Assembly (NCBI RefSeq): GCF_900105455.1
Contig: NZ_FNSF01000005.1
Span: forward strand, 62,001 to 126,000
DNA: 64,000 bases
Direction of reading: 5' to 3'
Source: Tenacibaculum sp. MAR_2009_124
GTDB lineage: Bacteria > Bacteroidota > Bacteroidia > Flavobacteriales > Flavobacteriaceae
Both the position numbers and the translations under genes were made by a program. Shown here in pieces: positions 9,001 to 40,722 of this stretch. The number at the start of each line of letters is the position of its first letter. Within the stretch, counting starts at the first letter, position 1. A model generated the notes under the pieces. The model did not search any database, had not been told where the DNA came from, and worked only from the letters and a program-made list of their open reading frames with translations.

Positions 9001-9124
9001 TTCTATTCGAGAAATATTTGAAAATGCCACCATAGAAGGACTCGGTATTCTAATCGATTTATTTACAACTAACGAAAAAGAAGACGAAGATGAAGAAGAT
9101 TTTAACCAAATTATAGAAATTTAA
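2..9124 (+). CDS. Nonribosomal peptide synthetase, C(partial)-A-T-C-A-T-C-A-T, 5' end outside window
   Basis: The reading frame is open from base 2 and the first ATG (53) falls inside a condensation domain just before its HHLITDG motif, so the gene starts left of the window; about 3040 residues are visible. Approximate order: partial C (2-950), A1 (1040-2490, TSGTTGTPKG near 1490), T1 (DNFFKLGGHS near 2610), C2 (2880-4150, HHLISDH near 3292), A2 (4240-5690), T2 (near 5780), C3 (5960-7230, HHIASDG near 6350), A3 (7330-8810), T3 (near 8920). Aligning each A domain to remembered GrsA positions gives pocket residues A1 DAEHIGKIS, A2 DASTVAAIC, A3 DAEHVGEVT. A2 resembles known Tyr codes; A1 and A3 match nothing I recognise. 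The protein ends in a very acidic tail (EKEDEDEED). The next NRPS starts one base after the stop, so the two are surely co-transcribed. No tailoring gene is visible beside it. Confidence 0.97.
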   Translation, partial: LFQNVLIKISEDEFWWFMRYHHLITDGYGCSIKVNYVIDEYELLVNNKPSENTEFPKYFDIAQKNNEYLNSKQYERDAEYWKEKFTTIPKSVFQKKFENRTLNAGRYSISISDSDRNIINALTAKTSANLAQFSIAALSIYFGKTLNQKDFTIGVPTHNRGSRVERKTLGMFSSILPYKGHYDDRQTLAELLTNIKQEQRKDYRHRLYPTSHINRSLNLLSEDKLQLFDITVNYEFFKLSRTINDSLKSFSKNVTCTEEVSSPISFRWSDYGSEVPLILNIDYKKEYFEQQEIELIAERFLYIIRQFNISLDAPVKNISVIPENELQQLLHKFNDSTYELPTNKTILDFFEEQAFATPDNIALIHNDRQLTYEELNNRANQLANFLKYKGVQSNDIIGLLSEKTFEMLIGVLGILKANAAYVPISPDYPKQRIDFIIENTQIDILLHTSDTFLKKEELLTVNLKKDWNEISTFSRTNIERIENTDSLAYVIYTSGTTGTPKGVMVQHNSLSNYIQYQSQLFNFSSNEHVLQFSNFIFDASIEQFFLALTNGATLVLPSKNDILDTEKLHILIKDKNVTHLHATPSYLQQLNNLDECLELKRVISGGEVCSLSLAKRIPANIDFYNKYGPTEATISVTEHKFDPKLDKAPVLPIGRPIAHMEVYILNSKNEVCPIGVPGELCISGIGLSSGYLNNEELTKQKFTQHPLKKDTPIYKTGDIASWLPDGTIEFISRMDDQVKIRGHRIELGEIESSLFKLQQVKNCAVLAQKDNQKNDTLVGYLVLEASTSIESVKNDLKESLPEYMIPAIWVELDTIPLTPNGKLDKKALPQPKINKIPEDNYVAPNTPLEIELATIWQELLGISKIGIRDNFFKLGGHSILVIQLISKLRAKGYSIAVNEIFDFPTIERICQRLQKITHQFQASSNQITNESKKITPEMIPLAELNQKDIDIITDTIPNGVENIQDIYSLSPLQEGIHYHHLLSSEKEGDPYIFSCLFGFDSEGDRQKFTSALQKVIERHDVLRTCFISKGISQPVQIVQKEVSLPITTLTLDDSKETLSQLKSIIEPGNQWMDISKGSLINLQYADDNNKFYLIFNEHHLISDHVGLSKLIQEIDIILSDKQEKLDSPKLYREFIGQVRHLRENNNAETFFSELFSEISEPSYPFNLSNTSTSASRIKEGDLELSKEFSSEIKTKCKNLGISPASFFHAAFGLIVGQCSNTDYALFGSLFSGRLQTTSEVSESLGLFINTLPVLIPLKGNVKEYLEQVHSHLNSLIPYEQTAISEIHNWTSIPNNTPLLSAVLNFRHSSADLSVNKTITLGHTEVTIVDAVERSNYPFSLNVDDYGDTFKLNAQLDQSIAPERLLNYMEIVLNQLLTDLNKEQKSISEINILPNHEQQLLVHNFNDTNTSYPDHKTIIDLFIEQVNKAPHLTAIAHNDSTFTYQELDEKSNQFANYLLSNGNLKIEESVAVILERSPWLIVAFLGILKAGGTYVPIDPKFPLERKHYIIEDSNSNTIIDQSFIEKFQKECSNISNDLPQRPITSNNLVYIIYTSGSTGKPKGVLIEHKAIMNTIFAQIDGFFIHKNSKCLQFASPSFDASISEILTSLLSESTLYIIDDKQKSDVNYFTNFIVDNGITIATIPPAFLQLLSIEKLAGIKTIVSAGEAISLDLAKGVAKHCNFINAYGPTETSICTSLFNEELTSLVSIGKPINNTQVYILNQNNSLLPMGATGELCVGGTGLTRGYLNREELTAKKFIQNPFSKSSNERIYKTGDLARWLPDGSLEFAGRVDDQVKIRGYRIELGEIENVLYSIKGVVQHSVITHKDKNNIHSLVAYVVLNDELTKETVQEKLKKKLPEYMIPSIWIELKTMPITSNGKVNKKALPIPEEVLVSSSTYKAARNEFETKLVSIWQELLSIDKIGIHDNFFELGGHSLLATRLVSQIRTKLDLELTIKEVFEHRTIAEISTLINNNDNNRNALPTITREHKEFIPLSFSQERLWFLDQLQGSTEYHMPFVINLEGDLDTEVLEKSFQLIIERHQTLRTLLISENGSEYQKVISEINWKLQETYYPNQRELKNEIFNFLTSPFNLSEDYKIRVNVYKTDERKYVLACLIHHIASDGWSQAIFINELNEIYNSYSNNDTPSLANLDIQYSDYAIWQRKHLEGKIIDDQLNYWKEKLNDVPKLKLPVDFTSNVAQNNDAGLASLIIDKKLTLALNKVCKEEDVTLFMFLLTGFKVLLSRYSNQEDICVGTPIANRTQSELENIIGFFTNTLALRSDLSGNPTFKEALGTVKKTTLEAYDHQIAPFERVVKTITSNRDLNSTPLFQVMFALQNTFDDNQKLQLDNIHASKYDFDRSLAKFDLSLDALESNGVINLSMTYRKNTFTKDTVNQLLKHYKILLEQFVENRIQNIHSVSLLDTNEEQKLLIDFQNTNHAYPKNETLATLFTKQVINTPHHIAISQNERELTYKELDKKSNQLGHFLLKKGVRKGDIIGLCMDRSPELIIGILGILKAGAAYVPIDSDYPEKRTEHIINDTSIEILISDQHSSIEAENREDIFVLKLDKDWSSIETLSKETPMITSNSSDLSYIIYTSGSTGLPKGVMIENQSVVNLISYQSKKFNITDSERILLFSNYVFDASVEQLFMTLLNGARLVILSKDDLLNPDNVIQLVNNQKITHIHATPSYLSQLEGIENCESIRRIVSGGEKCSFELAKKLSKKKDFYNEYGPTETTVTATELLFDSESNKNEVVSIGKPIGNTQAYILNSENKLQPIGVYGELCLAGDGLARGYLNQPELTSEKFIEHPFNQGERIYKTGDIVRWLPDGTLDFLERNDGQVKIRGYRIELGEIENTLLKIEEVRNGCISAKKDKNNQDYLVGYIVFESAPINKNVIIKELKKNLPEYMIPKVWVEIDALPLTVNGKLDKKALPEIDSVLTKKKELITPRSATEKKLFNIWQQLLNLEKFSIDDNFFELGGHSLLATRLVSVIKLELGVNISIREIFENATIEGLGILIDLFTTNEKEDEDEEDFNQIIEI

Positions 9125-9125
9125 G

Positions 9126-12100
9126 ATGAGCTTACATATATTAAAAATTTTAAAGGAACTAAATGAAAACGGAGCCAAATTAGAAGTTAATAAGGGCTCA
9201 TTAAAGTTAAAAGCGACAAAACCTATTGCTAATGATTTAATTTCTCTATTAAAAAAACATAAAGAAGAACTTATTGATTTTATAGAAAAGCATCAAGTCA
9301 AAACAAGTAGTACTTCATTACCTAAAGTAACCAATTTAAGTGGAAACTTTACAGGTAAAATACCACTATCATTTAGTCAAGAACGCCTCTGGTTCCTAGA
9401 CCAATTGAATGGTAGTGTAGAATATCATGTTCCTTTTATGCTCAACTTAAAAGGAAACTTAACCCCTGATGCTATGGAGCAATCACTTCGAACTATTATT
9501 ACACGACATGAAATACTACGCACGGTACTATTATCCGAAGATGGAGTTCCTTTTCAAAAAGTAACAGATTCCGACGAATGGAGTATGTTACAAAAAGAAA
9601 CATCCATCATAAACTCAGAAAAAGATGTTGAGGAGTTTACAAAACTTCCATTTGATCTTTCGAAAGATTTTATGCTAAAAGCTTGTCTATTTAGGGTAAG
9701 CAAAGACCATCATATTTTAGTTTGTCTCTTTCACCATATTGCTTCCGATGCCTGGTCTTCAGGGATTTTTATGAATGAATTATCTGAACTTTATAGTAGT
9801 TTTTCAAGCAATACTCCCACTTCTTTATCTCCCCTTGACATACAATATTCCGATTATGCCATCTGGTTGAGAAATCATGTTGAGGGTACCTTCTTAAATG
9901 AACAAATTAATTACTGGAAAAAGCAACTTAGTAACGTCAATAACCTATTACTTCCAACTGATTTCCCAAGACCAGCTATACAAAGTAAAAATGGAGCGGG
10001 CACTTCTTTAGAAATAGATAAAACCTTAAGTAATGATGTTCTTCAATTATGCCAAAAAGAAGATGTTACTCTTTTTATTTTAATGCTTTCTACTTTTAAA
10101 ATACTTATGAGTAGATATTCAAATCAGAAGGATATTTGCATTGGTAGTCCGATAGCCAATAGAACACAGGCTGAATTAGAAGGGCTTCTAGGCTTTTTTA
10201 CAAATACTTTAGCCTTTAGAAGCAACTTAGAGGGAAATCCTACCTTTAAAGACTTTTTAAAAACAGTAAAACAAACAACTCTCGAAGGCTACGATCATCA
10301 GCTTGTCCCTTTTGAAAAAATTGTTGACAGTGTTAGTAACCAACGAGACCTTAGTATGTCTCCTTTGTTTCAAGTAATGCTTGTTATCAATAACACACCA
10401 GAAGGAAACAAAGATCTTAAGCTTGAAAATGTTGACGTTTCAAATTATACGATTAATAGAGAGAGCTCAAAGTTCGACTTAACACTTCTTGTATTTAATA
10501 CAAACGGGCAATTAACCATAGGAATTGAATACTGTACAGATTTATTCAAAGAATCTACTGCTGAACAAATTCTGAGAAACTTTAAAGAATTACTGAAAAG
10601 CATTACGGAAAATATTGAACTCCCTATTGAAAATCTAAACATTTTGGAACCAAGTGAGAAAATTACTTCACTTGATGCATTTAACCAAAACGAAAAAAAC
10701 TACCCTGGTAATCAAACGGTTTTAGATTTATTTAAAAAACGGGTAGTTCAAACACCCAACAAAACTGCACTGGTTTTTCAAAATCAACAATTAACATATC
10801 TCGAACTAGATCGAAAATCAGATAAAATCGCTCACACCCTACTAACAAAAGGAGTAAAACCTAATGATAAAGTAGGTATTTGTATTGATCGTTCTGAAGA
10901 AATGATTATTGGTATTTTGGCGATATTAAAAACAGGATCTGCCTATGTTGCTATAGATCCAGAATATCCGGAAAGCAGAATAGATCATATGATCCAGGAT
11001 TCAGGTATTCAGTTACTATTGACAAGTAAAGAATGTATTGAAAAGGTTACAAATGACAATCTTGAAGTCGTGATCTTATCAACAGAGCTTGCTTGCGAAA
11101 CTACCACAGATCAATCACTTCCAAATGTGTCTCCTGAACAACTAGCATATCTAATTTACACTTCAGGCTCTACAGGCAAACCTAAAGGTGTACTCATGTC
11201 GCATAAGGCGCTTTTCAACCTCATCTATTTTCAAAAAGAAGCAGCTATTTCTGGAGATAAAGTAACTCAATTCACTAGTATTAGTTTCGATGTTTCTTTT
11301 CAAGAAATATTCTTTAGTTTAAGTCAAGGTAAAGAGCTACATATCATATCATCGAAACTTAAAAAAGATGCCTTAGCTCTCAAAAACTATATCAAAGAGA
11401 ATAATATCAACATCATTTTTCTTCCCACATCATTCTTTAACTTTTTTAGTTCAGAAGGATATTTCGAAGAGTTGACCTCTGTAAAAAATATTTTTGTGGC
11501 AGGTGAACAATTAAAAATGACTCCCGAGTTGATTCATTACTTAAAAAATAGTGATGTTACTTTACACAATCACTACGGCCCCAGCGAAGCCCATGTGGTT
11601 ACAACTCATGAATTGAGTAATAGAAATAACAACATAGAAACCACTACACCTTTTATCGGTTTCCCTGTTGCTAACAATCAAATCTATATTTTAGATACCC
11701 ACCAACAATTAGTTCCTTTAGGAGTTCCTGGCGAACTTTGTATCGGAGGAAATCAATTAGCTAATGGTTATTTGAATAAACCAGAATTAACCTCTGAAAA
11801 ATTTATTGCGAATCCTTTTAAAGACAATGAGAAAATTTATAGAACTGGAGATTTAGCAAAATGGTCTTCAGATGGAAATATTATTTTCTTAGGACGAATA
11901 GATAATCAAGTAAAAGTAAGAGGATATAGAATTGAACTTGGTGAAATCGAAAATGCACTAGCTTCTTTAGAAGAAATTGTAGAATGTTCCGTTCTCGCTA
12001 AAAAAGATGAACAAGGTAACAATCGATTGGTGAGTTATATTGTCTCTGTAAATGATTTTAACAAGGAAGAAATTCAAAATGAGTTAAAAAAACTCTTACC

Positions 12101-15100
12101 TGAGTATATGGTTCCATCAGTTTGGATTCCTCTTTCCAAAATGCCACTTACTCAAAATGGAAAAATAGACAAAAAAGCACTGCCTGAACCTGATACTTCT
12201 TTACTTTCATCAAACAGATACACTGCACCAGAAACCCCGCTTGAAAAACAACTTGCTACTATTTGGTCAACATTATTAAAAATACAACAAGTTGGAACTA
12301 ATGATAATTTCTTTGAATTAGGTGGGCATAGTTTGCTGGCAACACGTTTGGTTTCAATCATTAGAAAAGAACTAAAAATTGAGGTTGCCATTAAGGATAT
12401 TTTCAAATACTCGACAATCGCTCAATTAGCCGAGCACTTATCAAAGCAAGATGCAGCCACGATTTTACCTACAATTACAAAGCAAGAACAGCGTCCAAAA
12501 TACATTCCTCTTTCTTTTAACCAAGAACGCTTATGGTTTATTGATCAATTAAAAGGAAGTAAAGAATATGATATGCCTTTGATTCTTGAACTAAAAGGAG
12601 ATGTACAATCAACAATTTTAAAAAAAACATTAAAACTAATTATTTCACGACATGAAATATTACGTACAATGCTTCTTTCAGAAGAAGGCAATGGGTATCA
12701 AAAAATAGTTTCAGAAGACCAATGGGAACTGGCTCTACAAACAATTACTACCAATGAATCACTTAAAGAACAAATTGATACGTTTACATCGACACCTTTC
12801 GATTTAGCTCTTGATTACAAGGTAAAAGCAAAACTGTTTAAGGTTTCAGAACAAAACTTTGTCTTCGCTTGTGTTTTCCACCATATTGTTGGTGATGGCT
12901 GGTCAAAAGACATTTTTTTCAATGAATTTACCACTATTTACAAAGCACTAAGTTTAAATACAGAACCGAAACTTCCTTTTTTAACATTGCAATATGCCGA
13001 CTATGCTATTTGGCAACGTCAATATCTTTCTGGGAGTATACTTGAAAAGCAACTGGAATATTGGCATAAAAAGTTACATGGAGTTTCTAATATTACACTT
13101 CCCTTAGATTTCGCAAGACCTTCTATACAGAGTAATTCTGGAAATAGTATTGAACACATATTAGCTTCTGAACTAAGTAATTCTTTAAATAGAGTTTGTA
13201 AAGAAGAAGGCGTCACTCTATTCATGCTTTTACTATCAGCTTTTAAAGTATTGTTAAGCCGATGGAGTAATCAACAGGATATTTGTGTGGGTACTCCAAT
13301 TGCAAATAGAACTCAAGCAGAACTGGAGGGAATGATTGGCTTCTTTGTAAATACTTTAGCCTTAAGAAGCGATTTAAGTAAAAACCTAAGCTTTAAAAAA
13401 CTCTTAAATTCAGTAAAGGAAACAACTCTCGAAGCTTATGATCACCAATTAGCTCCTTTTGAAAGAATCGTCGACCGTGTTTTAAATGAACGAGATTTAA
13501 GCACCTCTCCTTTATTTCAAGTCGCTTTTATTCTACAAAATACTCCAAATGAATCGGACGGTCTGATTTTAAATAACATTCAGGCTTCTCCATATAATAC
13601 AAACCATGAAAGTGCTAAATTTGACCTTACTTTAAGCTCCTATGAAAAGGATAACCACATCTACTTAGGAATCAATTACCGAACGGAGTTATTCCAAAAA
13701 GACACTATTCAACGATTGTTAAATGGGTATGTTCAATTACTTACAAATGTTGTTGACAACATAGAAGCATCAATTCATGATGTTTCCATTTTAACACAAA
13801 ATGAACGAGAGTTAACACTTAATACTTTTAATAATTTTGATAAGGTCTTCCCTGAAAACAATACGCTTCATGGTTATTTTTCAAAACTAGCAAAAGAGAT
13901 TCCAAATAATTTAGCGTTGGTTTTTGAAAACAATGAGCTTACGTATAAAAAACTTGATGAAAAATCAAATCAATTTGCCAATTTCTTAACTGAGAACTTT
14001 ATTATTGAAAATGAAGAGTTAATCAATGTCGTTTTAGAAAGGAATGAATGGTTTATTATTTCCATTCTGGGAATTATGAAAACTGGGGCTGCTTATATCC
14101 CAATTGACCCAAGTTACCCCGAGGAAAGAAAAACGTATATAAAAGAAAATTCAAAGTCGAAAATCACGATTGACAGTAAACTCGTAAACAAATTCAAAAA
14201 AGAGAATTCCAAGTTTAGCAAATTGCCAATTCTAATAAATGTTTCCCCCTCAAACCTGGCCTATATCATATATACTTCAGGAAGTACCGGTAATCCAAAA
14301 GGGGTTATGATTGAACATAAAAATGTTTTGAACACTCTCTTATCTCAAATCGACATTTTTTCAGTAAAAAGTTCAGATCATTGTTTACAGTTCGCTAGTT
14401 CTTCTTTTGATGCTTCTGTAAGTGAGATTTTTGTTTCACTCTTAAGTGGAAGTAAACTATATATTACTGACGAAAATAGAAAAACTGACATTAGCTACTT
14501 ACGAAAATTTATTAGTAGTCATAAAATTTCTATTTTAACGTTACCTCCAGCATTACTTCAAGTTTTATCTATCGAAGATTTAAAAGGAGTAAAAACTTTA
14601 ATTACTGCTGGAGAAGCAATTCCTCTAGAGCTAGGTAAACAATTCTCTAAACATTTTAATTATTACAATGCCTATGGCCCGACTGAAACAAGTATCTGTG
14701 CTACCATCTTTAAAGGGGTTATTGAAGACAGAGTTACCATTGGTCATCCAATTCATAATACCAAAATCTACATCACTGACGACAATTTAAATCCGCTTCC
14801 AATTGGTGTTATTGGAGAGTTGTGTATTGGTGGTAAAGGTGTTGGTAGAGGTTACTTAAATAACGAAGATTTAACCAATCAAAAGTTTGTTCAGAACCCA
14901 TTTGATGAAATGGAGAAAACAAAACTTTATAAATCTGGAGATCTTGCACGATGGTTACCTGATGGGACCATTGAGTTTTTAGGACGTAAGGATGATCAAG
15001 TAAAAATTAGAGGTTATAGAATAGAACTGGGTGAAGTTGAGCATCATATCAGTCAAATAAAAGGAGTTAAACAGGCTGTTGTTTTAGCAAAAAAAACGAA

Positions 15101-16874
15101 TCAAGGGATTAACCAGCTTATTTGTTATATGACTACGAAAAACGAATTCAACGAAAGTAGTATTAAAGAAGAACTCCAAGCTACTTTACCGAGTTTTATG
15201 GTTCCTTCAACATTTGTTACTATCGATGAATTTCCTTTGACAAATAATAAAAAAGTTGATAAAAAAGCTTTATTGAATATTGATGTTTTAAAAGCTTCTA
15301 CAGACTCTTATCATGCTCCGAGCAATACAACTGAAGAGCAACTTGCAACAATATGGCAGGAGGTCTTGGCTTTGGAAAAAGTAGGTGTCCATGATAATTT
15401 CTTTGAAATTGGAGGGAATTCAATTTTAGCTATTCGCTTGGTAGCAAAACTTCAAGAATTCTTTAAACTTGAAATTAATGATTTATTCAAATATCCTACT
15501 GTTAATAAACTATCAAAAAACATAAGCTACTCAAAAGACTTCTTTAAAAATAAAATCCAGCATCATATAACTCAATTAAGAAAATTAGAAAATCAGAAAG
15601 AGTTAAACAAACCGTCCGAAAAATTAAACCAACAGGCATTAATTACTGAAAAAATTAACATTGAGAAACAAGAGTATCTTTCAAAAATTAAAGATTTGAA
15701 TACGCTGAATCTTGAAAAGGAAATAGCTTACAATAATTTATTACTCCTTGGATCCACAGGGTATTTAGGAATTAATCTTCTTAGAAGTTTGTTGCTTCAA
15801 AATTCATCACAACTAACAACAATCGTAAGAGCAGAAAATAACACTGCCGCCAAAGAAAGATTATCAGAATTATATACCTTCTATTTTAATGAAGAATTAC
15901 CCAACACAAAAAATATAACTGTTATTGCGGGCGATATTACGAAACCATTATTTGGGATTGATAAAGCCATTTATAAACAACTAACAAATTCTGTCGATAG
16001 TATTATAAATGCGGCGGCAAATGCTAAACATTATGGGAGTCTTGAAAGTTTTCAAAAAATCAATGTATACCCAATTGAAACCATGATTTCTTTTGCCAAT
16101 GAAGGAGTTTCGAAGGTTATTCACCACGTATCTACACTAAGTATTTCTGGGTTTAAGAATATTGATTCAGCAGATCAATCATTTCTATTCACAGAAAAAG
16201 AAACAAACAAAAATCAAAATCATACTAATTTTTATACGCAAAGTAAATTAGAAGGTGATACTCTCTTAGATAAAGCTAGACAAAAAGGAATTAAAGCTAA
16301 TATTTATCGAGTTGGAAACTTAAGTTTCAACAGTACCAATGGAAGTTTTCAAAGAAACATAGAAGACAACGCTTTTTATAACCGCATGAAGTCTTTTCTA
16401 GCTATAGAAGCAATGCCTGAATCACAACAAAATATGGAGATTTCATGCATAGATAAAGTATCTGAAGCTATATTAACTGTATTTAATAAGAAAGAATTGT
16501 TTAATCGAAACTTTCATATTAGAAACACCTACTCTTTGAGTAATACCGAATTTGTTGATTTTGCAAATAAAAACGGATATTCGATTACACTAGAAAAGAT
16601 GAGTGATTTCTTTGAAAACTTATTAAACCAATATAGTGAAAAGAAAGAGCTCATTAATCGTTTCCTTTTACATTCGAGCGCCTTTGATGCAGATGTATCC
16701 GATGTGATTCCATATCAAGTATGTAGTAATAAAACAGATTACATTCTTGACAAATTAGGGTTTGCTTGGAACGAAATAGACGAGCAACAAATAAAACAGA
16801 TGCTCGATTATGGAGAAAAGATTAATTTCTGGTATCAAACCCATAAAGATTCTAAAAAACTAGAAGAGGTTTAA
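9126..16874 (+). CDS. Nonribosomal peptide synthetase, TubC docking-C-A-T-C-A-T-reductase (terminal)
   Basis: 2582 residues. Residues 1-55 (starting MSLHILKILKELNENGAKLE) look like a TubC N-terminal docking domain, which pairs with the C-terminal tail of the upstream synthetase. Then C4 (about 80-500; HHIASDA, Gly replaced by Ala), A4 (525-1020), T4 (DNFFELGGHS near 1058), C5 (1125-1545; HHIVGDG), A5 (1575-2050), T5 (DNFFEIGGNS near 2090), a Lys/Glu-rich linker, and a C-terminal thioester reductase (2200-2575). The reductase has the Rossmann motif GSTGYLG, NAAANAKHYG and the YTQSK (YxxxK) catalytic pair. My reading of the A4 pocket is DVQFFAHVV, close to proline codes; A5 is DASTIAAIC, close to Tyr/Phe codes. 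There is no thioesterase, so NAD(P)H-dependent release as aldehyde (or alcohol) is expected. It starts one base after the previous stop, which suggests translational coupling, and is followed by a strong terminator. Confidence 0.97.
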   Translation: MSLHILKILKELNENGAKLEVNKGSLKLKATKPIANDLISLLKKHKEELIDFIEKHQVKTSSTSLPKVTNLSGNFTGKIPLSFSQERLWFLDQLNGSVEYHVPFMLNLKGNLTPDAMEQSLRTIITRHEILRTVLLSEDGVPFQKVTDSDEWSMLQKETSIINSEKDVEEFTKLPFDLSKDFMLKACLFRVSKDHHILVCLFHHIASDAWSSGIFMNELSELYSSFSSNTPTSLSPLDIQYSDYAIWLRNHVEGTFLNEQINYWKKQLSNVNNLLLPTDFPRPAIQSKNGAGTSLEIDKTLSNDVLQLCQKEDVTLFILMLSTFKILMSRYSNQKDICIGSPIANRTQAELEGLLGFFTNTLAFRSNLEGNPTFKDFLKTVKQTTLEGYDHQLVPFEKIVDSVSNQRDLSMSPLFQVMLVINNTPEGNKDLKLENVDVSNYTINRESSKFDLTLLVFNTNGQLTIGIEYCTDLFKESTAEQILRNFKELLKSITENIELPIENLNILEPSEKITSLDAFNQNEKNYPGNQTVLDLFKKRVVQTPNKTALVFQNQQLTYLELDRKSDKIAHTLLTKGVKPNDKVGICIDRSEEMIIGILAILKTGSAYVAIDPEYPESRIDHMIQDSGIQLLLTSKECIEKVTNDNLEVVILSTELACETTTDQSLPNVSPEQLAYLIYTSGSTGKPKGVLMSHKALFNLIYFQKEAAISGDKVTQFTSISFDVSFQEIFFSLSQGKELHIISSKLKKDALALKNYIKENNINIIFLPTSFFNFFSSEGYFEELTSVKNIFVAGEQLKMTPELIHYLKNSDVTLHNHYGPSEAHVVTTHELSNRNNNIETTTPFIGFPVANNQIYILDTHQQLVPLGVPGELCIGGNQLANGYLNKPELTSEKFIANPFKDNEKIYRTGDLAKWSSDGNIIFLGRIDNQVKVRGYRIELGEIENALASLEEIVECSVLAKKDEQGNNRLVSYIVSVNDFNKEEIQNELKKLLPEYMVPSVWIPLSKMPLTQNGKIDKKALPEPDTSLLSSNRYTAPETPLEKQLATIWSTLLKIQQVGTNDNFFELGGHSLLATRLVSIIRKELKIEVAIKDIFKYSTIAQLAEHLSKQDAATILPTITKQEQRPKYIPLSFNQERLWFIDQLKGSKEYDMPLILELKGDVQSTILKKTLKLIISRHEILRTMLLSEEGNGYQKIVSEDQWELALQTITTNESLKEQIDTFTSTPFDLALDYKVKAKLFKVSEQNFVFACVFHHIVGDGWSKDIFFNEFTTIYKALSLNTEPKLPFLTLQYADYAIWQRQYLSGSILEKQLEYWHKKLHGVSNITLPLDFARPSIQSNSGNSIEHILASELSNSLNRVCKEEGVTLFMLLLSAFKVLLSRWSNQQDICVGTPIANRTQAELEGMIGFFVNTLALRSDLSKNLSFKKLLNSVKETTLEAYDHQLAPFERIVDRVLNERDLSTSPLFQVAFILQNTPNESDGLILNNIQASPYNTNHESAKFDLTLSSYEKDNHIYLGINYRTELFQKDTIQRLLNGYVQLLTNVVDNIEASIHDVSILTQNERELTLNTFNNFDKVFPENNTLHGYFSKLAKEIPNNLALVFENNELTYKKLDEKSNQFANFLTENFIIENEELINVVLERNEWFIISILGIMKTGAAYIPIDPSYPEERKTYIKENSKSKITIDSKLVNKFKKENSKFSKLPILINVSPSNLAYIIYTSGSTGNPKGVMIEHKNVLNTLLSQIDIFSVKSSDHCLQFASSSFDASVSEIFVSLLSGSKLYITDENRKTDISYLRKFISSHKISILTLPPALLQVLSIEDLKGVKTLITAGEAIPLELGKQFSKHFNYYNAYGPTETSICATIFKGVIEDRVTIGHPIHNTKIYITDDNLNPLPIGVIGELCIGGKGVGRGYLNNEDLTNQKFVQNPFDEMEKTKLYKSGDLARWLPDGTIEFLGRKDDQVKIRGYRIELGEVEHHISQIKGVKQAVVLAKKTNQGINQLICYMTTKNEFNESSIKEELQATLPSFMVPSTFVTIDEFPLTNNKKVDKKALLNIDVLKASTDSYHAPSNTTEEQLATIWQEVLALEKVGVHDNFFEIGGNSILAIRLVAKLQEFFKLEINDLFKYPTVNKLSKNISYSKDFFKNKIQHHITQLRKLENQKELNKPSEKLNQQALITEKINIEKQEYLSKIKDLNTLNLEKEIAYNNLLLLGSTGYLGINLLRSLLLQNSSQLTTIVRAENNTAAKERLSELYTFYFNEELPNTKNITVIAGDITKPLFGIDKAIYKQLTNSVDSIINAAANAKHYGSLESFQKINVYPIETMISFANEGVSKVIHHVSTLSISGFKNIDSADQSFLFTEKETNKNQNHTNFYTQSKLEGDTLLDKARQKGIKANIYRVGNLSFNSTNGSFQRNIEDNAFYNRMKSFLAIEAMPESQQNMEISCIDKVSEAILTVFNKKELFNRNFHIRNTYSLSNTEFVDFANKNGYSITLEKMSDFFENLLNQYSEKKELINRFLLHSSAFDADVSDVIPYQVCSNKTDYILDKLGFAWNEIDEQQIKQMLDYGEKINFWYQTHKDSKKLEEV

Positions 16875-17640: not shown

Positions 17641-18687
17641 TTATTCTTCAAAAGAGTTCCAGCCTTGCGCCTTTAGCGCAATTTCTTGGTTCGCCCGTGT
17701 TACTAAATTCAATCCTTGATCTTTCTCAGTAATATGACCAATAATAGTTAAATTGGGATTTCCTTTAATTTTATCAAAATCATTAATAGAAACTGTAAAT
17801 AACAATTCATAATCCTCTCCTCCACTCAAAGCAACCATTGTTGAATCAATATCAAATTCTTCACAAGTAGAAATCACCTGTGGGTCCAAAGGAAACTTAT
17901 CTTCATAGATTTTACAACCTACTTTACTCTGTGTACATATATGAAAAATCTCTGACGACAATCCATCAGAAATATCTATCATTGATGTAGGTTTCACCTC
18001 TAAATCTGCTAAAAGTCTAGGAATATCTTTTCTTGCTTCAGGTTTCAGTTGCCTTTCAATAATATATGAGTAATTTTCTAAATCCGGCTGATTCTGAGGA
18101 TTTACTTCAAATACTTGCTTCTCTCTTTCTAATACCTGCAATCCTAAGTAGGCTCCACCCAAATCTCCTGAAACTACAACTAAATCCGTTGGTTTCGCTC
18201 CATCTCTATAAACAATATCTTCCTTAGTTGCTTTTCCTATAGCAGTAATTGAAATTAATATTCCTTTATTAGAAGAAGTTGTATCACCTCCAATTAAATC
18301 TACATTATATGTATTACATGCTAATTGAATTCCAGCATATAACTCCTCTATAGCCTCTAAAGAAAACCTATTAGAAACTGCAATAGAAACAGTAATCTGC
18401 TCAGCCTCCGCATTCATCGCATAAACATCCGATAAATTTACCATAACAGCTTTATATCCTAAATGCTTTAAAGGCATATAACTTAAATCAAAATGCACTC
18501 CTTCAACCAATAAATCTGTGGTTACTACTGTTTGTTTTTCAGAAGATTCCAATACTGCTGCATCATCACCAATTCCTTTCACTGACGTAGCATGCTTCAA
18601 CGAAAAGTGTTTTGTCAAATGATCTATTAATCCGAACTCACCTAACGACGCTAGAGACGTTCTATCTTGATTTTTATTTTCTAACAT
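17641..18687 (-). CDS. thiL: Thiamine-monophosphate kinase
   Basis: ThiL phosphorylates thiamine monophosphate to the diphosphate cofactor with ATP, the last step of thiamine synthesis. The protein has the PurM-like ATP-grasp features of the family: GIGDDAAVLE near the N-terminus, TDLLVEGVHFDLSYM, GGDTTSS, DISDGLSSE and SGGEDYELLFTV near the C-terminus. The frame is open to an ATG at 18714, but I place the start at 18687 (MLENKNQDRT). That matches the usual N-terminus of flavobacterial ThiL, gives 348 residues, and leaves a TATCTTTG promoter box (18699-18692) outside the coding region. A hairpin terminator follows. It stands alone, divergent from the surface-protein cassette. Confidence 0.95.
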   Translation of the reverse strand: MLENKNQDRTSLASLGEFGLIDHLTKHFSLKHATSVKGIGDDAAVLESSEKQTVVTTDLLVEGVHFDLSYMPLKHLGYKAVMVNLSDVYAMNAEAEQITVSIAVSNRFSLEAIEELYAGIQLACNTYNVDLIGGDTTSSNKGILISITAIGKATKEDIVYRDGAKPTDLVVVSGDLGGAYLGLQVLEREKQVFEVNPQNQPDLENYSYIIERQLKPEARKDIPRLLADLEVKPTSMIDISDGLSSEIFHICTQSKVGCKIYEDKFPLDPQVISTCEEFDIDSTMVALSGGEDYELLFTVSINDFDKIKGNPNLTIIGHITEKDQGLNLVTRANQEIALKAQGWNSFEE

Positions 18688-18691
18688 GCTG

Positions 18692-18699
18692 CAAAGATA
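18692..18699 (-). promoter_or_regulatory. thiL: Bacteroidota -7 box (TATCTTTG) for thiL
   Basis: TATCTTTG fits the TAnnTTTG consensus exactly. It ends only four bases before the ATG at 18687, so the predicted transcription start coincides with the A of the start codon. No convincing TTTG -33 element is seen at the usual spacing. Confidence 0.6.
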
Positions 18700-18778
18700 C
18701 TTATATCTCAACAATTAACACAGTGTAATTATATGTCAATCTCCTATATTAAAACTAGAAACAAAAATCTTTTTCGTA

Positions 18779-18804
18779 TTGTATTTCAATATTTTATAAA
18801 TTTG
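18779..18804 (+). promoter_or_regulatory. Bacteroidota promoter for the choice-of-anchor B / MbnPH cassette
   Basis: TAAATTTG at 18797-18804 fits the TAnnTTTG -7 consensus exactly. A weak TTG (18779-18781) lies 15 bases upstream as a possible -33. The box lies inside the longest open frame, which supports translation from the downstream ATG at 18829, about 20 bases after the predicted transcript start. Confidence 0.6.
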
Positions 18805-18828
18805 TTAAACACCCCTAAATTATACGGC

Positions 18829-20274
18829 ATGCTTAAAAAAATCTTTTTTATCTCGTTTTTATTGTCAATAACAGTTATTCATTCTCAAACAACTTGTAGT
18901 AATGGTATGGCAGGAGACTATCCTTGTAGCAATTATGATCTAATGGCTTTTATTCCGATTTCAACACTTGCTAATTCCAATGGTTCACCTAGCTCTAGTG
19001 ACATATGGGGATGGACAGACAGCACAACTAATAAAGAATACGCTATTGCGGGCATGTCAAACAGTACTGCTTTTATTGATATTAGCGACCCTGTAAATCC
19101 TATTTTTCTTGGCAGGTTAAATTCTAATGCAGGAAACAACTCCTGGAGAGATATTAAAGTTTATAACAATCATGCATTTATTGTAGCTGACATCGTTGGA
19201 GAACATGGAATGCAGGTTTTTGACTTAAGAAGGCTTCGTGGTGTAACTTCTGAGCAAAATTTCACCGCTGATGCTATTTATACCGGTGTTGGAAGCTGCC
19301 ATAATATTGTTATCAATGAAGATAAAGGAGTCGCCTACTTAGTTGGCTGTAGAAGTACCAATGGAGGAGGCCCTATTTTTATCGACATTTCGAATCCTAC
19401 TAATCCAACAAGTTTAGGTGATTATCAAACAGATGGATACTCTCATGATGCACAAGTCATCACCTACAACGGTCCTGACACTGAACATCAAGGCAAGGAA
19501 ATTTATATTGGTAGCAATGAAGATGAAATTGTAGTACTCGATGTTACTGACAAAAATAATGTAGTAAGAATTTCAAATATTAACTATCCTCAAATTGGAT
19601 ATACACACCAAGGATGGTTTACCGAAGATCATCGTTACTTTATTTTAGGTGATGAAACGGATGAACGAAATTATGGAATGAATACACGAACCTTAATCTT
19701 TGACCTCCAAGATTTAGATACCCCGAACCTGTCTTCTACTTATTTAGGAGAAACCGGAGCCATAGACCATAATGGGTATACTAAAGAAAATGAATTTTTC
19801 TTGTCAAGTTACACTGCAGGTATGCGAGTATTAGATATTTCGAACATTTCATCAACATCAAATCCAATGACGGAAATTGGATATTTTGACACGCATCCTG
19901 AAAATGACAACACATCTTTTAGAGGTGTTTGGAGCGTTTACCCATACTTCCAAAGCGGAAACATTGTAATCAATGATATTAATAGAGGAATGTTTATCGT
20001 TAAAAAAAGCGGTACGTTAAATTCTGATTCTGATGAAATCAATGAAACAGCTATAAAAATATATCCAAACCCCACCGATGTAAATCCAATTATATCCATT
20101 AACAAAGGTCGCATTGAAACCATTGATGTTATTTCAATTTTAGGTAAAAAAGTTCTTTCTTTTAAAGATATCAATAATCATGATTTTGAAATTGACATAA
20201 GCGGTATTTCATCAGGAATATACTTCATAAGAATAAACAATAAATCAGCGCAAAAATTAATAGTAAACAACTAA
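18829..20274 (+). CDS. Choice-of-anchor B family secreted protein with type IX secretion sorting domain
   Basis: 481 residues from the ATG at 18829. The frame is open further upstream, but this start gives a clean signal peptide (MLKKIFFISFLLSITVIHSQ) and sits just after a promoter box. The body has LVIVD-like beta-propeller repeats typical of choice-of-anchor B proteins (for example AFIDISDPVNPIFLGRL and IFIDISNPTNPTSLGDY). Residues from about 410 form a type A T9SS sorting domain (KIYPNPTD ... ISSGIYFIRI), so the protein should be exported by the type IX system and attached or released at the cell surface. It heads a tight four-gene run with a repeat lipoprotein, MbnP and a di-heme peroxidase. 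Its own ligand is unknown. Confidence 0.9.
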   Translation: MLKKIFFISFLLSITVIHSQTTCSNGMAGDYPCSNYDLMAFIPISTLANSNGSPSSSDIWGWTDSTTNKEYAIAGMSNSTAFIDISDPVNPIFLGRLNSNAGNNSWRDIKVYNNHAFIVADIVGEHGMQVFDLRRLRGVTSEQNFTADAIYTGVGSCHNIVINEDKGVAYLVGCRSTNGGGPIFIDISNPTNPTSLGDYQTDGYSHDAQVITYNGPDTEHQGKEIYIGSNEDEIVVLDVTDKNNVVRISNINYPQIGYTHQGWFTEDHRYFILGDETDERNYGMNTRTLIFDLQDLDTPNLSSTYLGETGAIDHNGYTKENEFFLSSYTAGMRVLDISNISSTSNPMTEIGYFDTHPENDNTSFRGVWSVYPYFQSGNIVINDINRGMFIVKKSGTLNSDSDEINETAIKIYPNPTDVNPIISINKGRIETIDVISILGKKVLSFKDINNHDFEIDISGISSGIYFIRINNKSAQKLIVNN

Positions 20275-20276
20275 AA

Positions 20277-21599
20277 TTGACACGAAATCTACTATTTTTC
20301 AGCACTTTGTTTCTATTACTAACAAGCTGTAACAAAAAAACTATTGAACTTCCTTCTGTTTTTCTAGAGGAAATAGACTTTGTAAATACCATCGGTGGCT
20401 CTAAAAATGAAGTAGCGAAATCCGTCGTTTTCACCAACGATGGTGGTTATGCCATTCTTGGCTATGTTCAAAGCAATGACTTAGATTTTTCATCGAAAAC
20501 AAACGATAGCTTCGATTTCTTTGTTATCAAGTATTCTCAAAACGATGTATTAGAATGGATAAAAACATATGGAGGGAGCGATGACGACAGAGGCGATAAA
20601 ATTATTAGCACCTCCGATGGAGGTTTTGCTGTAATTGGCTATTCAGAAAGCTCTGATATTGATGTAAGTGAGAATGCAGGTGATAAAGATTTTTGGATTC
20701 TAAAACTAGATTCAAACGGGAACATCACTTGGAAAAAAACCTTAGGTTATCTTGGAAAAGACTTCGGAACAGCAATTATCGAAACTTCCGATGGAGGTTT
20801 CTTAGCTTCTGGCGAATTGGATGTAACTGCCTCAGGTGGCGAAGGAAATACAAGTTCAAGGCCATTTCATGCTGGTGGCGACTTTTGGGCGATCAAATTA
20901 AACTATTCAGGAACTGTTGTATGGAGTCGTTATTATGGTGGTACTTTTACAGAAACTCCTTCGGGAATTGTAGAAACTCAAAATGGTAATTTTATTATTG
21001 CTGGCACCTCTGATAGTGCAGATGTGGATGTTCTTAACAATAAAGGAACTTATGATTTTTGGGTAATTAAAATTAACAGTACAGGTGACCTCATATGGAA
21101 TAAAAACTTTGGAGGTTCTGAAATTGACGAAGCAAAAGCCATTGTTAAAACAAGTAATAACAATTTTCTTATTCTTGGAAATAGTCGAAGTAATGATCAA
21201 GATATCGTCCAAAATTCTGGTGGAGCAGATTTATGTATTGTTAAAATTAACGATGAAGGAGATTTATTAATGCAAAAAAATCTCGGTGGAAACAATTTTG
21301 ATGCTGGAAATGCAATTCATCAAATGGGCGATGGTAACTTTTTAGTTTCAGGCAGCACTAGAAGTACCTTTGGGAATATTCAAAACAAAGGACAAAATGA
21401 TGCTTGGCTCTTAAAAATTGATTCACAAGCAAATATCCTTTGGCAAAAAAACATTGGAGGATCGAACATCGATTTTTGTTTTGATGCTACAGAACTTCTT
21501 GATGGCACAATAATAGGTGTTGGTGAGAGCACAAGTAATGATAAAGATATCTTAGAGAATAAAGGGTTTTCAGATATATTAATAGTAAAACTTAAGTAA
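20277..21599 (+). CDS. Repeat lipoprotein, predicted beta-propeller
   Basis: 440 residues. There is no ATG before the lipobox, and the only plausible start is a TTG two bases after the preceding stop, giving TRNLLFFSTLFLLLTSC with an LTSC lipobox. The mature part is about seven repeats of 45-60 residues with the pattern GGS..D.a..i..t.DGGF...G.s.S.D.d......D.Wi.KL...G...W.K, which suggests a seven-bladed propeller on the outer membrane or periplasmic face. No catalytic motif is visible. Position and coupling to the choice-of-anchor B gene suggest joint expression with MbnP and the di-heme peroxidase. I know this repeat type only as a hypothetical Bacteroidota lipoprotein family. Confidence 0.85.
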   Translation: MTRNLLFFSTLFLLLTSCNKKTIELPSVFLEEIDFVNTIGGSKNEVAKSVVFTNDGGYAILGYVQSNDLDFSSKTNDSFDFFVIKYSQNDVLEWIKTYGGSDDDRGDKIISTSDGGFAVIGYSESSDIDVSENAGDKDFWILKLDSNGNITWKKTLGYLGKDFGTAIIETSDGGFLASGELDVTASGGEGNTSSRPFHAGGDFWAIKLNYSGTVVWSRYYGGTFTETPSGIVETQNGNFIIAGTSDSADVDVLNNKGTYDFWVIKINSTGDLIWNKNFGGSEIDEAKAIVKTSNNNFLILGNSRSNDQDIVQNSGGADLCIVKINDEGDLLMQKNLGGNNFDAGNAIHQMGDGNFLVSGSTRSTFGNIQNKGQNDAWLLKIDSQANILWQKNIGGSNIDFCFDATELLDGTIIGVGESTSNDKDILENKGFSDILIVKLK

Positions 21600-21643
21600 A
21601 ACCGTTATAGTGTATATTTACATAAAAAAATAACTAGTTATTC

Positions 21644-22402
21644 ATGAAAAAATTTGCGATCATTTTTTTATCATTTTTTTTACTTTGCTGTAGTGCAGAT
21701 AATGACGAACCTATTAAACAAATTTCGGTTAAGTTTAGCTTCACTCATAATTGGGATGGTACTTCGGTAGATGCGGGCGATTTTGAAGAATTTAATTTTG
21801 AAAATCAAAAAGGAAACAAAATAAGTATTGAACGTCTCCGATATTTAATATCAAGAATTAACTTAATAAAAAGTAATAACGACACTATTAAATTTGATGG
21901 TTACAAATTAGTTACGCTTGATACTTTAGAGAACAATTTAATTCATGAACTTCCTGAAACAATTTCTGAAGGGATCTACAATTTGTCATTTACATTCGGG
22001 TTTGACGATAACGATAATATTTCAGGAGCTTACCCCGATTTAAACACGGCAAACTGGGAAGTTGCTGCTGAGAAACCAGGAGGATATCACTTTTTACAAC
22101 TTGAAGGTAAGTTTAAGGATTCTGTAGGAGCTGACAACCCTTATCTTTATCATACTATAAAAGCCTATAATTCGGCAAACGATTCATTAAAAGACACCTC
22201 CTTTAAATTAAATTTAGGGAGTATTTCCTTAAAAAACAATGCAACCGTTGAAATACAAATGAATATTGCTGAGTGGTTTAAAAACCCTCATGCCTGGGAT
22301 TTAAATGAACGAAGTGTTGATTTAATGATGAATTTTGATGCTCAATTAGACATGTCTGATAATGGAAAAAATGTTTTTCGTTTAGGAGGAGTTACAGAAT
22401 AG
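21644..22402 (+). CDS. MbnP family lipoprotein
   Basis: 252 residues with a lipoprotein signal (MKKFAIIFLSFFLLCC). The mature sequence follows the MbnP family: VKFSFTHNWDGT near the N-terminus, SIERLRYLISRINL, YNLSFTFGFDDNDNISGAYPDLN, GGYHFLQLEGKF and WFKNPHAWDLN. MbnP proteins are periplasmic partners of the di-heme enzyme MbnH; in Methylosinus, MbnH oxidises a Trp of MbnP to kynurenine, giving a metal (copper) site. Several Trp residues are present here (W37 in HNWDG, also NWEV, EWF and AWDL); I cannot tell which would be modified. The MbnH-like gene follows 31 bases downstream, so the pair is intact. Confidence 0.88.
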   Translation: MKKFAIIFLSFFLLCCSADNDEPIKQISVKFSFTHNWDGTSVDAGDFEEFNFENQKGNKISIERLRYLISRINLIKSNNDTIKFDGYKLVTLDTLENNLIHELPETISEGIYNLSFTFGFDDNDNISGAYPDLNTANWEVAAEKPGGYHFLQLEGKFKDSVGADNPYLYHTIKAYNSANDSLKDTSFKLNLGSISLKNNATVEIQMNIAEWFKNPHAWDLNERSVDLMMNFDAQLDMSDNGKNVFRLGGVTE

Positions 22403-22433
22403 TTGAATAGAACACAATTAAACAAATGCACTA

Positions 22434-23492
22434 TTGAAATATTTAGGAATACTACTTGCACTAATTATGTTAAGTTGCTCTTCTCCAAGCAATGATATGC
22501 AAGTGTATACTCCAAAAAAAGTGGAGCTAGAAGTTCCGGATATTCTAAAACAGAAATTAATTGCTCCTTTAGTACCTTCAAATAACCCTTTAACGGAAGA
22601 AGGGATTTCTTTGGGTAAAAAGTTGTTTTTTGACACTATACTGTCAAAAGATAATTCTCAATCTTGCGCTAGTTGTCACAATCCTCAAAATGCCTTTTCT
22701 GACAGTTTAAAATTTAGCCTTGGAGTTGATGGAATACCCGGCAATAGGAACGCAATGCCCTTATTTAATTTAGCATGGAATTTTGACGAACGATTTATGT
22801 GGAATGGTTCGGAACTAAGCATTGAAAGACAAGCATTTTCTCCAGTACGTGACCCCATTGAAATGCATAACGACTGGAAAATAGTTGCCGAAAAACTGCA
22901 AGCGCATAACGAATATCTCGAACTATTTTTAAAAGCTTTCAACACCAACAAAATAGACTCTACATTTGTTACGAAAGCATTAGCTCAATTTGAACGCACC
23001 TTAATTTCCGCCAATTCAAAATTTGACAACTATTTACTCGGAAACATCAACCTATCAGAAGAAGAACTTAATGGTTTTGACGTATTTATACGTGAAGACA
23101 AAGGCGATTGTTTCCATTGTCATGGAAGTGAACACAATCCGCTTTGGACAGACAACCAATTCCACAACAACGGTCTTGACTCAAACTTTACGGATTTAGG
23201 TCTCGGAACTGTAACCGGTGATCCTAGTGACAATGGAAAATTTAAAACACCTTCCCTAAGAAACCTTATTTATACTGCTCCTTATATGCATGATGGTAGA
23301 TTTACTACTATCGAAGAGGTGATTAACCATTATTCCGAAGGATTGCAAAACTCTTCAACGGTAGATCCGTTAATGAAAAAAGTACACGAAGGAGGCGTGC
23401 ATTTATCTAATGAAGATAAAGCAGCTTTAAAAGCTTTTCTTCTTACTCTTAGCGACCCAAGTTTTGTAAACAACCCTGAATTCATGAATTAA
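22434..23492 (+). CDS. Di-heme cytochrome c peroxidase family lipoprotein, MbnH-like
   Basis: 352 residues. Two c-type heme sites are visible, C78-A-S-C-H82 and C226-F-H-C-H230, the arrangement of bacterial di-heme peroxidases and MauG/MbnH enzymes. RNLIYTAPYMHDGRF near the C-terminus holds a typical axial-ligand region. The start is a TTG at 22434: a stop closes the frame 13 bases upstream and the only in-frame ATG comes directly before the lipobox (LSC). The nearby ATG at 22426 is out of frame and ends after three codons. It follows MbnP, which argues for Trp oxidation of MbnP over plain peroxide removal. Maturation needs cytochrome c assembly genes located elsewhere. Confidence 0.9.
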   Translation: MKYLGILLALIMLSCSSPSNDMQVYTPKKVELEVPDILKQKLIAPLVPSNNPLTEEGISLGKKLFFDTILSKDNSQSCASCHNPQNAFSDSLKFSLGVDGIPGNRNAMPLFNLAWNFDERFMWNGSELSIERQAFSPVRDPIEMHNDWKIVAEKLQAHNEYLELFLKAFNTNKIDSTFVTKALAQFERTLISANSKFDNYLLGNINLSEEELNGFDVFIREDKGDCFHCHGSEHNPLWTDNQFHNNGLDSNFTDLGLGTVTGDPSDNGKFKTPSLRNLIYTAPYMHDGRFTTIEEVINHYSEGLQNSSTVDPLMKKVHEGGVHLSNEDKAALKAFLLTLSDPSFVNNPEFMN

Positions 23493-23545
23493 GACATATA
23501 TATCGACTTTGTTTATGGCGAAATAGACTATATCCATTCTAAAAA

Positions 23546-23577
23546 ATGATATAAATCATATTTTGTCACTATCTTTG
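23546..23577 (+). promoter_or_regulatory. suf operon promoter with overlapping inverted repeat
   Basis: TATCTTTG (23570-23577) is an exact TAnnTTTG -7 box; the predicted transcript begins about 25 bases before the sufA ATG. An inverted repeat ATGAT-ataa-ATCAT (23546-23559) sits where the -33 region should be and could be an operator for an iron or Fe-S sensing repressor. The operator role is inference only. Confidence 0.5.
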
Positions 23578-23607
23578 TAGCTGATTTGGATTTAATCTAT
23601 TTAAGAT

Positions 23608-23937
23608 ATGATAAAAGTTTCAGATACTGCAAAAAAGAAAGTAATTCAATTAATGACTGAAGACGGCTTTGATGCTATCAACGATTTTGTTAGAGTTGGT
23701 GTAAAGAGTGGAGGTTGTTCAGGTTTATCATATGATTTACACTTTGATAAAAAACATGGTGAAGCAGATAAATTATTTGAAGATAATGGTGTAAAAATCA
23801 TTGTTGACAAAAAGAGTTTCTTATACCTAGTTGGCACTATTTTAGAATATTCAGGCGGTTTAAATGGTAAAGGATTTGTTTTTAACAATCCTAACGCTAA
23901 CCGAACTTGTGGATGTGGCGAAAGCTTTTCCTTATAA
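23608..23937 (+). CDS. sufA: Iron-sulfur cluster assembly A-type carrier (SufA/IscA/HesB)
   Basis: 109 residues, the usual length of A-type carriers. The three cluster-binding cysteines are present: C37 in GVKSGGCSGLSY and C101/C103 in NRTCGCGESF. These proteins receive Fe-S clusters from the SufBCD scaffold and hand them to target enzymes in the cytoplasm. The gene is first in a suf operon, 26 bases before sufB, behind a recognisable promoter. Naming it sufA, not iscA or erpA, rests on the operon. Confidence 0.92.
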   Translation: MIKVSDTAKKKVIQLMTEDGFDAINDFVRVGVKSGGCSGLSYDLHFDKKHGEADKLFEDNGVKIIVDKKSFLYLVGTILEYSGGLNGKGFVFNNPNANRTCGCGESFSL

Positions 23938-25412: not shown

Positions 25413-25914
25413 ATTATAAAGTCGAAAGGCTAAGGTCGAAAGACGGAAAACATAAAGCTCATATATTTTAATAAAAACATGATAAAATCCTTTGAAGATA
25501 TTGAAAGTTGGAAGCAATCACGATTATTTAATCAACTTATTTATGATGCAACCAATAATTTTAAATTTGATAAGGATAATGATTTAAGAAGGCAGATTAG
25601 AAGAGCATCTGTCTCTATAAGTTCAAATATTGCCGAAGGTTTTGAAAGAAATACTGACAAAGAATTTATTCATTTCCTTTATATAGCAAAAGCATCAGCT
25701 GGCGAGATTCGTTCTCAATTATATTTGAGTTATGATTTAAAATATATTAGTGAGAATGATTTTAATGAATTAAAAAGTAAAGTCATTGAAATCTCAAAAA
25801 CAATTAGTGGATTAATAAAATATTTAAAGAACTCAATCTAGACAAGTCGCTTTTAGTCGTAAGAAAAATAAAGACTTTTAGCTTTCGTCTATAGACTTTA
25901 AACTGAATATACAA
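25413..25914. mobile_element. Candidate inserted cassette between sufB and sufC (four-helix-bundle gene plus flanks)
   Basis: The gap between sufB and sufC holds a lone four-helix-bundle gene flanked by GTCG/GAC-rich sequence. The left flank has AAAGTCGAAAGGCTAAGG and GTCGAAAGAC (25419-25445). The right flank has AAAGACTTTTAGCTTTCGTC and TATAGACTTT (25869-25902), roughly the inverse complement of the left flank. No transposase or clear target duplication is visible. That this is a small element moved in trans is inference. Confidence 0.4.
25479..25841 (+). CDS. Four-helix bundle protein (23S rRNA intervening-sequence / S23 family)
   Basis: 120 residues with the family signatures FEDIESWKQSRL at the N-terminus, LRRQIRRASVSISSNIAEGFER in the middle, and FLYIAKASAGEIRSQL. 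The family was first found encoded in intervening sequences of 23S rRNA and occurs widely as solitary genes in Bacteroidota; it folds as a four-helix bundle and is related to the Avd protein of diversity-generating retroelements. Its biochemical role is unknown. It has nothing to do with Fe-S assembly, so its place between sufB and sufC looks like an insertion. Since sufC must be made, transcription presumably reads through. Confidence 0.93.
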   Translation: MIKSFEDIESWKQSRLFNQLIYDATNNFKFDKDNDLRRQIRRASVSISSNIAEGFERNTDKEFIHFLYIAKASAGEIRSQLYLSYDLKYISENDFNELKSKVIEISKTISGLIKYLKNSI

Positions 25915-40510: not shown

Positions 40511-40584
40511 TCCTCCTTAGCTCAGTTGGTTAGAGCATCTGACTGTTAATCAGAGGGTCCTTGGTTCGAGCCCAAGAGGAGGAG
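40511..40584 (+). tRNA. tRNA-Asn (anticodon GTT)
   Basis: Full cloverleaf: acceptor TCCTCCT/AGGAGGA with discriminator G, D-arm GCTC...GAGC, anticodon loop CTGTTAA with GTT at 40545-40547, and T-arm CTTGG-TTCGAGC-CCAAG. CCA is not encoded. First of two tandem copies sharing one promoter and terminator. Confidence 0.97.
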
Positions 40585-40647
40585 CAGAAGGCAACTTGGA
40601 AGCCGATAATTTCCAAAATTTAAATATATTTGTTCAGCAAAGAACAT

Positions 40648-40721
40648 TCCTCTTTAGCTCAGCTGGTTAGAGCATCTGACTGTTAATCAGAGGGTCCTTG
40701 GTTCGAGCCCAAGAAGAGGAG
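40648..40721 (+). tRNA. tRNA-Asn (anticodon GTT), second copy
   Basis: Nearly identical to the first copy. It differs in the acceptor stem, TCCTCTT/AAGAGGA, where both sides change so pairing is kept, and in one D-loop base. A 63-base spacer separates the two. CCA is not encoded. Confidence 0.97.
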
Positions 40722-40722
40722 C

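Follow-up and report, generated by a model that had tools for sequence, protein, structure and literature searches.

What does an MbnH enzyme do when the tryptophan that it is known to oxidize is missing from its partner, MbnP? The question is raised by four genes on the + strand of Tenacibaculum sp. MAR_2009_124, in a stretch of 64,000 nucleotides (contig NZ_FNSF01000005.1, positions 62,001 to 126,000) that we call the window and to which all coordinates refer. They encode a choice-of-anchor B family protein (18829..20274), an SBBP-like propeller lipoprotein (20277..21599, TTG start), an MbnP-family lipoprotein (21644..22402) and an MbnH-like di-heme c-type cytochrome (22434..23492, TTG start); the extent and content of this block, as given in the initial annotation, were borne out. 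The sole reaction known for MbnH is the oxidation of one MbnP Trp, and the initial annotation had supposed that the enzyme makes kynurenine in MbnP here as well. As stated, that view is not supported. The window MbnP has no WxW motif, and related MbnPs have repeatedly lost the candidate Trp residues while MbnH was kept. Since many of these marine Flavobacteriaceae have lost Trp at the target and not MbnH, the pair probably does something here that has not yet been described. The lack of methanobactin genes, noted in the initial annotation although no search aimed at MbnB or MbnC was made, would by itself be unremarkable, as PMC3621798 already reports conservation of the pair well outside the producers of methanobactin.

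A conserved four-gene operon

Within the genus, 75 of 97 genomes have a relative of the window MbnP (E <= 0.001); within the family the figure is 112 of 299, which includes weak matches to canonical MbnPs. From the 240 loci fetched, merging of identical MbnPs left 207 non-identical rows, the window among them; strong matches in G124, G139, G161 and G263 and a fragment in G455 lie outside this set. The four genes are contiguous, in the same order and on one strand in 192 of the 207, so that the order is clearly not a peculiarity of a single genome and its conservation, anticipated in the initial annotation, is confirmed. Two further rows, which we read as contig ends, hold SBBP, MbnP and MbnH without choice-of-anchor B in the locus; in seven rows MbnH lies elsewhere in the genome, and in six MbnP is alone (the stranded MbnPs below). 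Gaps within the cassette are tight, with medians of 7, 3 and 6 bp and values of at most 60 bp in 192/198, 197/200 and 183/193 cases, respectively. The four genes form an operon whose place, with thiL on one side and the SUF genes on the other, is conserved.

The seven exceptions are split between MbnP and MbnH (L099, L102-L104, L345, L366, L367). In four of these genomes MbnH was seen adjoining IscA and SufB elsewhere (L273-L276), and the genes have therefore been parted by rearrangement and not by loss. Across the 97 genus genomes, MbnP, SBBP and MbnH orthologs are found together in 70 and MbnP only in four; G455 has an MbnP fragment with MbnH, G447 a truncated MbnH only, and 21 have none of the three orthologs; weak matches to SBBP in G425 and G445 are left out of these counts. 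The G447 gene (L443) is a lone MbnH ortholog (73% identity, residues 59-350 only) between thiL and IscA, in a genome with no match to MbnP, SBBP or choice-of-anchor B, and is a decaying remnant.

Loss of the candidate tryptophans with retention of MbnH

That the window protein is an MbnP is indicated by PF20243 (92.7 bits against a cut-off of 27) and by its predicted fold. A search of solved-structure sequences with the MbnP alignment gave no match up to E 10, so that fold comparison was needed; the model (mean predicted local distance difference test, pLDDT, 90.7) has the fold of 7L6G (VIA Z 16.7, root-mean-square deviation 3.4, 213 residues), the next entry scoring 5.4. The W.W motif, present in 20 of 20 canonical MbnPs examined, is absent from it. 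The first Trp of this motif is the one that reportedly becomes kynurenine, a finding attributed to Manesis et al. in 2021.

Which window residue occupies that position depends on the alignment. With 27 class-level intermediates of the type ...MxWPxMxGGGYHF included, the first Trp of canonical GMxWxW lines up with Val140, which directly precedes the conserved Pro, and the canonical Met lines up with Trp138. Inspected by eye, all 27 intermediates carry His149, His170 and Met228, and position 140 is Trp in 26 of them. We prefer Val140 over Trp138 as the probable equivalent of the oxidized residue because the intermediates and the cassette clade align gap-free from the Trp to GGGYH. Two observations weigh against this choice: a profile alignment without the intermediates matches Trp138 to the first Trp of the canonical motif, and a further alignment puts the motif at a third placement, so that the assignment to position 140 rests on the wide alignment. 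The possibility, raised at the outset, that this MbnP lacks the modified Trp position is thus borne out under the wide alignment (Val140) and contradicted under the profile alignment (Trp138).

Whichever alignment is adopted, Trp is missing at both positions in at least 70 of the 201 cassette MbnPs. Over all 207 rows, position 138 is Trp in 134, Phe in 71, Ser in one and a gap in one; position 140 is Val in 184, Trp in 21, Lys in one and Thr in one. The 201 cassette rows combine as Trp/Val (109), Phe/Val (70), Trp/Trp (21) and gap/Val (1), leaving 180 without Trp140. An MbnH ortholog accompanies every one of the 201, in the locus in 194 cases and elsewhere in the genome, at 65-69% identity, in seven. 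The two positions changed often: FastTree trees built from SufB (186 rows) and ThiL (159 rows) show, respectively, 17 and 12 changes at position 138, and 12 and 10 at position 140.

MbnH itself appears complete. The window protein matches PF03150 (187.3 bits against 25.6, E 3.1e-55) and lies below the curated cut-off of TIGR04039 (254 against 362.85 bits), which is still its best NCBIfam match; its closest solved sequence is 6E1C (E 2.6e-51). Both CxxCH haem motifs are retained among the 135 MbnHs compared, a set that does not extend to the last 80 loci: C78, C81 and H82 in 135, and C226, C229 and H230 in 134. The lipoprotein Cys is present in 134, and Trp123 is conserved in all 135, including 25 partnered with a Phe138 MbnP. 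A search for MbnH residues that track the Phe138/Trp140 state brought out only non-catalytic positions, compatible with descent.

Candidate metal ligands and the fate of MbnH

Three putative metal residues of MbnP behave differently from the candidate Trp positions. Every one of the 201 cassette MbnPs retains His149, His170 and Met228. The six stranded proteins come from genomes that contain no MbnH match above 43% identity; all six have lost Met228, three His170 and one His149, and at 11 of 23 near-invariant positions none of the six deviates. Four stranded proteins gave the first sign of the link. A second sample added two, which had lost Met228 and kept both His; the Met228 rule therefore held, and the His rule held only in part. 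Both the SufB and the ThiL trees give five state changes each for the joint fate of these residues and MbnH.

Several observations weigh against reading this as a specific tie to MbnH. The stranded MbnPs are more widely relaxed, with Asn134 lost in five of six, Pro141 in three and Gly146 in three, and they deviate at 2-9 of the 23 positions, compared with 0-2 in cassette rows. In two stranded proteins, L329 and L373, both His persist. Sign tests on independent pairs on supported branches, although all pairs point in the same direction, are not significant (4/4 pairs, p 0.125; 3/3 pairs, p 0.25). Met228 is also not universal in canonical MbnPs, where Met, His, Gln and others occur. Both propellers are missing from the loci of the stranded MbnPs. 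Genome-wide searches of these genomes covered G404, G413, G245 (a 25% match only), G414 and G486 for SBBP, not the genome of L204, and G413 and G486 only for choice-of-anchor B.

Two propellers and an apparently exchangeable pair

The choice-of-anchor B protein, whose mechanical open reading frame (ORF) begins at 18733, matches TIGR04312 (529.7 bits, cut-off 100) and ends in a T9SS (type IX secretion system) type A sorting domain (Por_Secre_tail, PF18962; 44.3 bits, cut-off 27). It is predicted to be a WD40-like propeller, since its model (pLDDT 86.5) matches such propellers (best Z 31.4, 296 residues) and, by Foldseek E-value, a propeller phosphotriesterase (5HRM); the propeller fold is common and indicates no function. 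Five His (H126, H158, H206, H260 and H314, numbered from the Met at 18829) are present in 33 of 33 proteins and in 136-138 of 138 in a larger set. Anchors vary: the T9SS tail is visible by eye in 14 of 33 proteins, and a regular expression picks out a lipobox in 18 of the remaining 19. The SBBP-like protein has no Pfam match, falls under the cut-off of 400 for NF047494 (LipL53 SBBP lipoprotein) at 56.8 bits, and is closest among solved sequences to the CylK propeller (E 1e-22); its lipobox Cys18 is found in 137 of 139 relatives.

The mixture of T9SS and lipobox anchors would fit a surface location. MbnP has its lipoprotein Cys in 81 of 81 proteins compared, and in 92 of 129 regex-matched MbnPs (of 143) at least three acidic residues lie at +3..+7 after the lipobox, which is suggestive only of a possible surface-export signal. 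An envelope location, in keeping with the surface complex suggested in the initial annotation, is plausible from the T9SS tail and the lipoprotein Cys residues.

The fate of the five His is instructive as to partners. Of the 22 genomes of the genus that lack MbnP, five (G397, G424, G435, G438, G471) retain, beside thiL, a choice-of-anchor B gene that scores above the cut-off, and have no SBBP match; these stranded copies have all lost Trp106 and from one to four of the five His (a second copy in G397 is outside the comparison). Copies that adjoin SBBP keep all five, even with no MbnP-MbnH in the slot (L408, L411, L412, L414, L416). Loss of ring His does not, in this simple form, mark the loss of MbnH: the ring follows SBBP. 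Two other copies are L423, which has SBBP elsewhere in the genome and none adjacent and keeps the ring, and L420 (24% identity), which has Glu at 126.

The four genes had been taken as one set. This is too strict, as five genomes (L429-L432, L434) hold both propellers in the slot with MbnP-MbnH missing beside them, and an obligate unit is ruled out. Four propeller-only genomes (G018, G020, G026, G032) have no PF20243 match, and in G075 a canonical MbnP lies elsewhere. A canonical WxW MbnP with its canonical MbnH fills the slot between SBBP and SUF in G096 (L176) and G102 (L433); the canonical WxW set of G177 (L437) sits outside it. Since the slot is empty in five genomes and taken by a canonical pair in two, MbnP-MbnH looks like an exchangeable module plugged into a core of choice-of-anchor B and SBBP.

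Proposed mechanism and alternatives

We favor reading the cassette as a surface-anchored metal-binding unit in which the MbnP site is free of kynurenine and MbnH does not act at the known Trp, a model to which we give about even odds. Choice-of-anchor B, anchored through T9SS or as a lipoprotein, and the SBBP propeller would form the core. The MbnP lipoprotein would bind a metal through His149, His170 and Met228 unaided by kynurenine; copper, most likely Cu(I), is suggested by MbnP family membership. MbnH, as a complete di-heme enzyme, would support this site by peroxide-driven redox chemistry, the Methylosinus-type Trp not being its target. A bolder proposal, which we think possible but less likely than not, is that in this bacterial family MbnH has a second, kynurenine-independent job with the His/His/Met site of MbnP and the His-lined surface propeller, and that the enzyme has thus outlived the one substrate residue known for it. 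Copper binding by the Methylosinus MbnP is said to depend on kynurenine, which speaks against its easy loss. On chemical grounds, a CorA-type copper site without kynurenine seems plausible because, according to PMC3912023, the copper of CorA has two His as first-sphere ligands and a water, and the kynurenine is about 2.9 Å away.

The main rival is a shift of substrate, in which MbnH would oxidize another residue: Trp138 where it is kept, a different Trp of MbnP (Trp218, for instance), or a propeller residue. We consider this possible but rather unlikely. It would account for the retention of both haem motifs and Trp123, and the clade-specific Trp148 and Trp238 of MbnH could reflect a changed electron route. 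Trp138, the canonical target under the profile alignment, is kept in 130 of 201 cassette MbnPs; it is, however, Phe in 70 others that keep MbnH. Trp218 is Trp in 207 of 207 MbnPs, the six stranded ones included, and so does not track MbnH. A near-invariant WGW of the choice-of-anchor protein (136/138) is likewise kept in the five stranded copies.

It is also worth considering that the propellers and the MbnP-MbnH pair are neighbors only, with separate jobs and an operon shared by descent. The five genomes with propellers alone at the slot, all five His kept, would agree with this, as would the pairs seen outside Flavobacteriaceae, which have other neighbors (L444-L448). Against it, 70 of the 97 genus genomes combine MbnP, SBBP and MbnH, SBBP never occurs in these 97 unless both others do, and the six stranded MbnPs, with no propellers in the locus, are degenerate; we regard mere adjacency as improbable. 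Least credible of all is that this is a classical pair making kynurenine for copper binding, for although the family and fold of MbnP, the Trp/Trp state of 21 of 201 cassette MbnPs and the canonical WxW pairs in the same slot of two genomes speak for it, the window MbnP has no WxW and most cassette MbnPs lack Trp140, many of them both residues.

The interest of the cassette lies in the many removals of the Trp, or of both candidates, with MbnH kept. They make another role of MbnH testable with natural variants: Trp/Trp, Trp/Val and Phe/Val cassettes, slots that a canonical pair has filled, and slots that have no pair. The cassette also brings to the study of metal handling in Flavobacteriaceae a conserved envelope operon whose two propellers are unstudied.

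Genome setting

The source genome comprises 5.5 Mb in 8 contigs, and the nearest named relatives, among the best 80 of 469 matching stretches, are Tenacibaculum (MbnP identity 76%). Upstream and outside the cassette lies a conserved thiL-like gene (17641..18714, - strand, PF00586); of 206 related loci, 157 have it directly before choice-of-anchor B, and many of the rest stop short of it. The conserved downstream flank is the first gene of the SUF cluster (Fe-S_biosyn, 23608..23937, + strand, PF01521). Cotranscription of the cassette with SUF is not favored, given a median gap of 120 bp after MbnH (183 loci), and the SUF cluster is probably a separate transcription unit. A scan of 18500-23800 was uninformative, with 23 promoter-like sites against 21.8 expected and three terminator-like sites against 2.4.

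Between SufB and SufC, a 120-amino-acid ORF (25479-25841) resembles, by eye, the four-helix protein of rRNA intervening sequences; related ORFs (labeled 4HB) occur at varying positions near SUF genes in other loci. The window also contains two adjoining nonribosomal peptide synthetase genes (53-16874) with three plus two adenylation domains and a terminal reductase-type domain, and a tandem pair of tRNA-Asn (gtt) genes (40511-40722).

Comparison with known systems

The literature searched, with subscription papers largely outside it, contained no paper that uses the names choice-of-anchor B, metallo-mystery pair or MbnP family protein, and the matches for MbnP with Flavobacter were not evidently on the subject. 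Hydrazine synthase (5C2V) unites a di-heme subunit of MauG type and a propeller subunit in one complex; its chain B is among the matches of the choice-of-anchor propeller (Z 30.0) and its gamma subunit is a weak match to MbnH. It is distant from the cassette, and a shared function is without support.

The CorA/MopE proteins of methanotrophs, with CorB/SACCP, likewise place a surface Cu(I) protein beside a di-heme peroxidase. Kynurenine, a part of the CorA copper site, is doubtful in the cassette MbnP, and PMC3621798 states that the sequence of MbnP shows no marked similarity to those of MopE and CorA.

Closer at hand is a second MbnP-MbnH pair of the same genome (C4:511096-513137, L001/L172), which belongs to the same two families. 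Its MbnP has the canonical MTWSW, and it is without propellers, unlike the cassette. This pair adjoins a TonB-dependent receptor, a PepSY protein and a CDACGC protein. A CDxCGC-motif protein of 325-337 amino acids is found in 11 of 20 canonical MbnP loci (L172-L191), and in L444 and L445 the gene before MbnP encodes a similar protein with CDLCS. The one in L172 has no Pfam match and by eye looks like an outer-membrane barrel.

The nearest characterized relative remains the MbnP-MbnH pair of Methylosinus trichosporium (7L6G, 6E1C), which shares with the window the MbnP fold, the best MbnH sequence match and the adjoining arrangement of the two genes. The window MbnP differs from it in lacking WxW and in having Val140 (or Trp138) at the oxidized Trp, and its clade differs from canonical MbnPs in an extra His149 where these mostly have Lys or Arg. 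Finally, the cassette pair, unlike that of Methylosinus, has two propellers as its partners.

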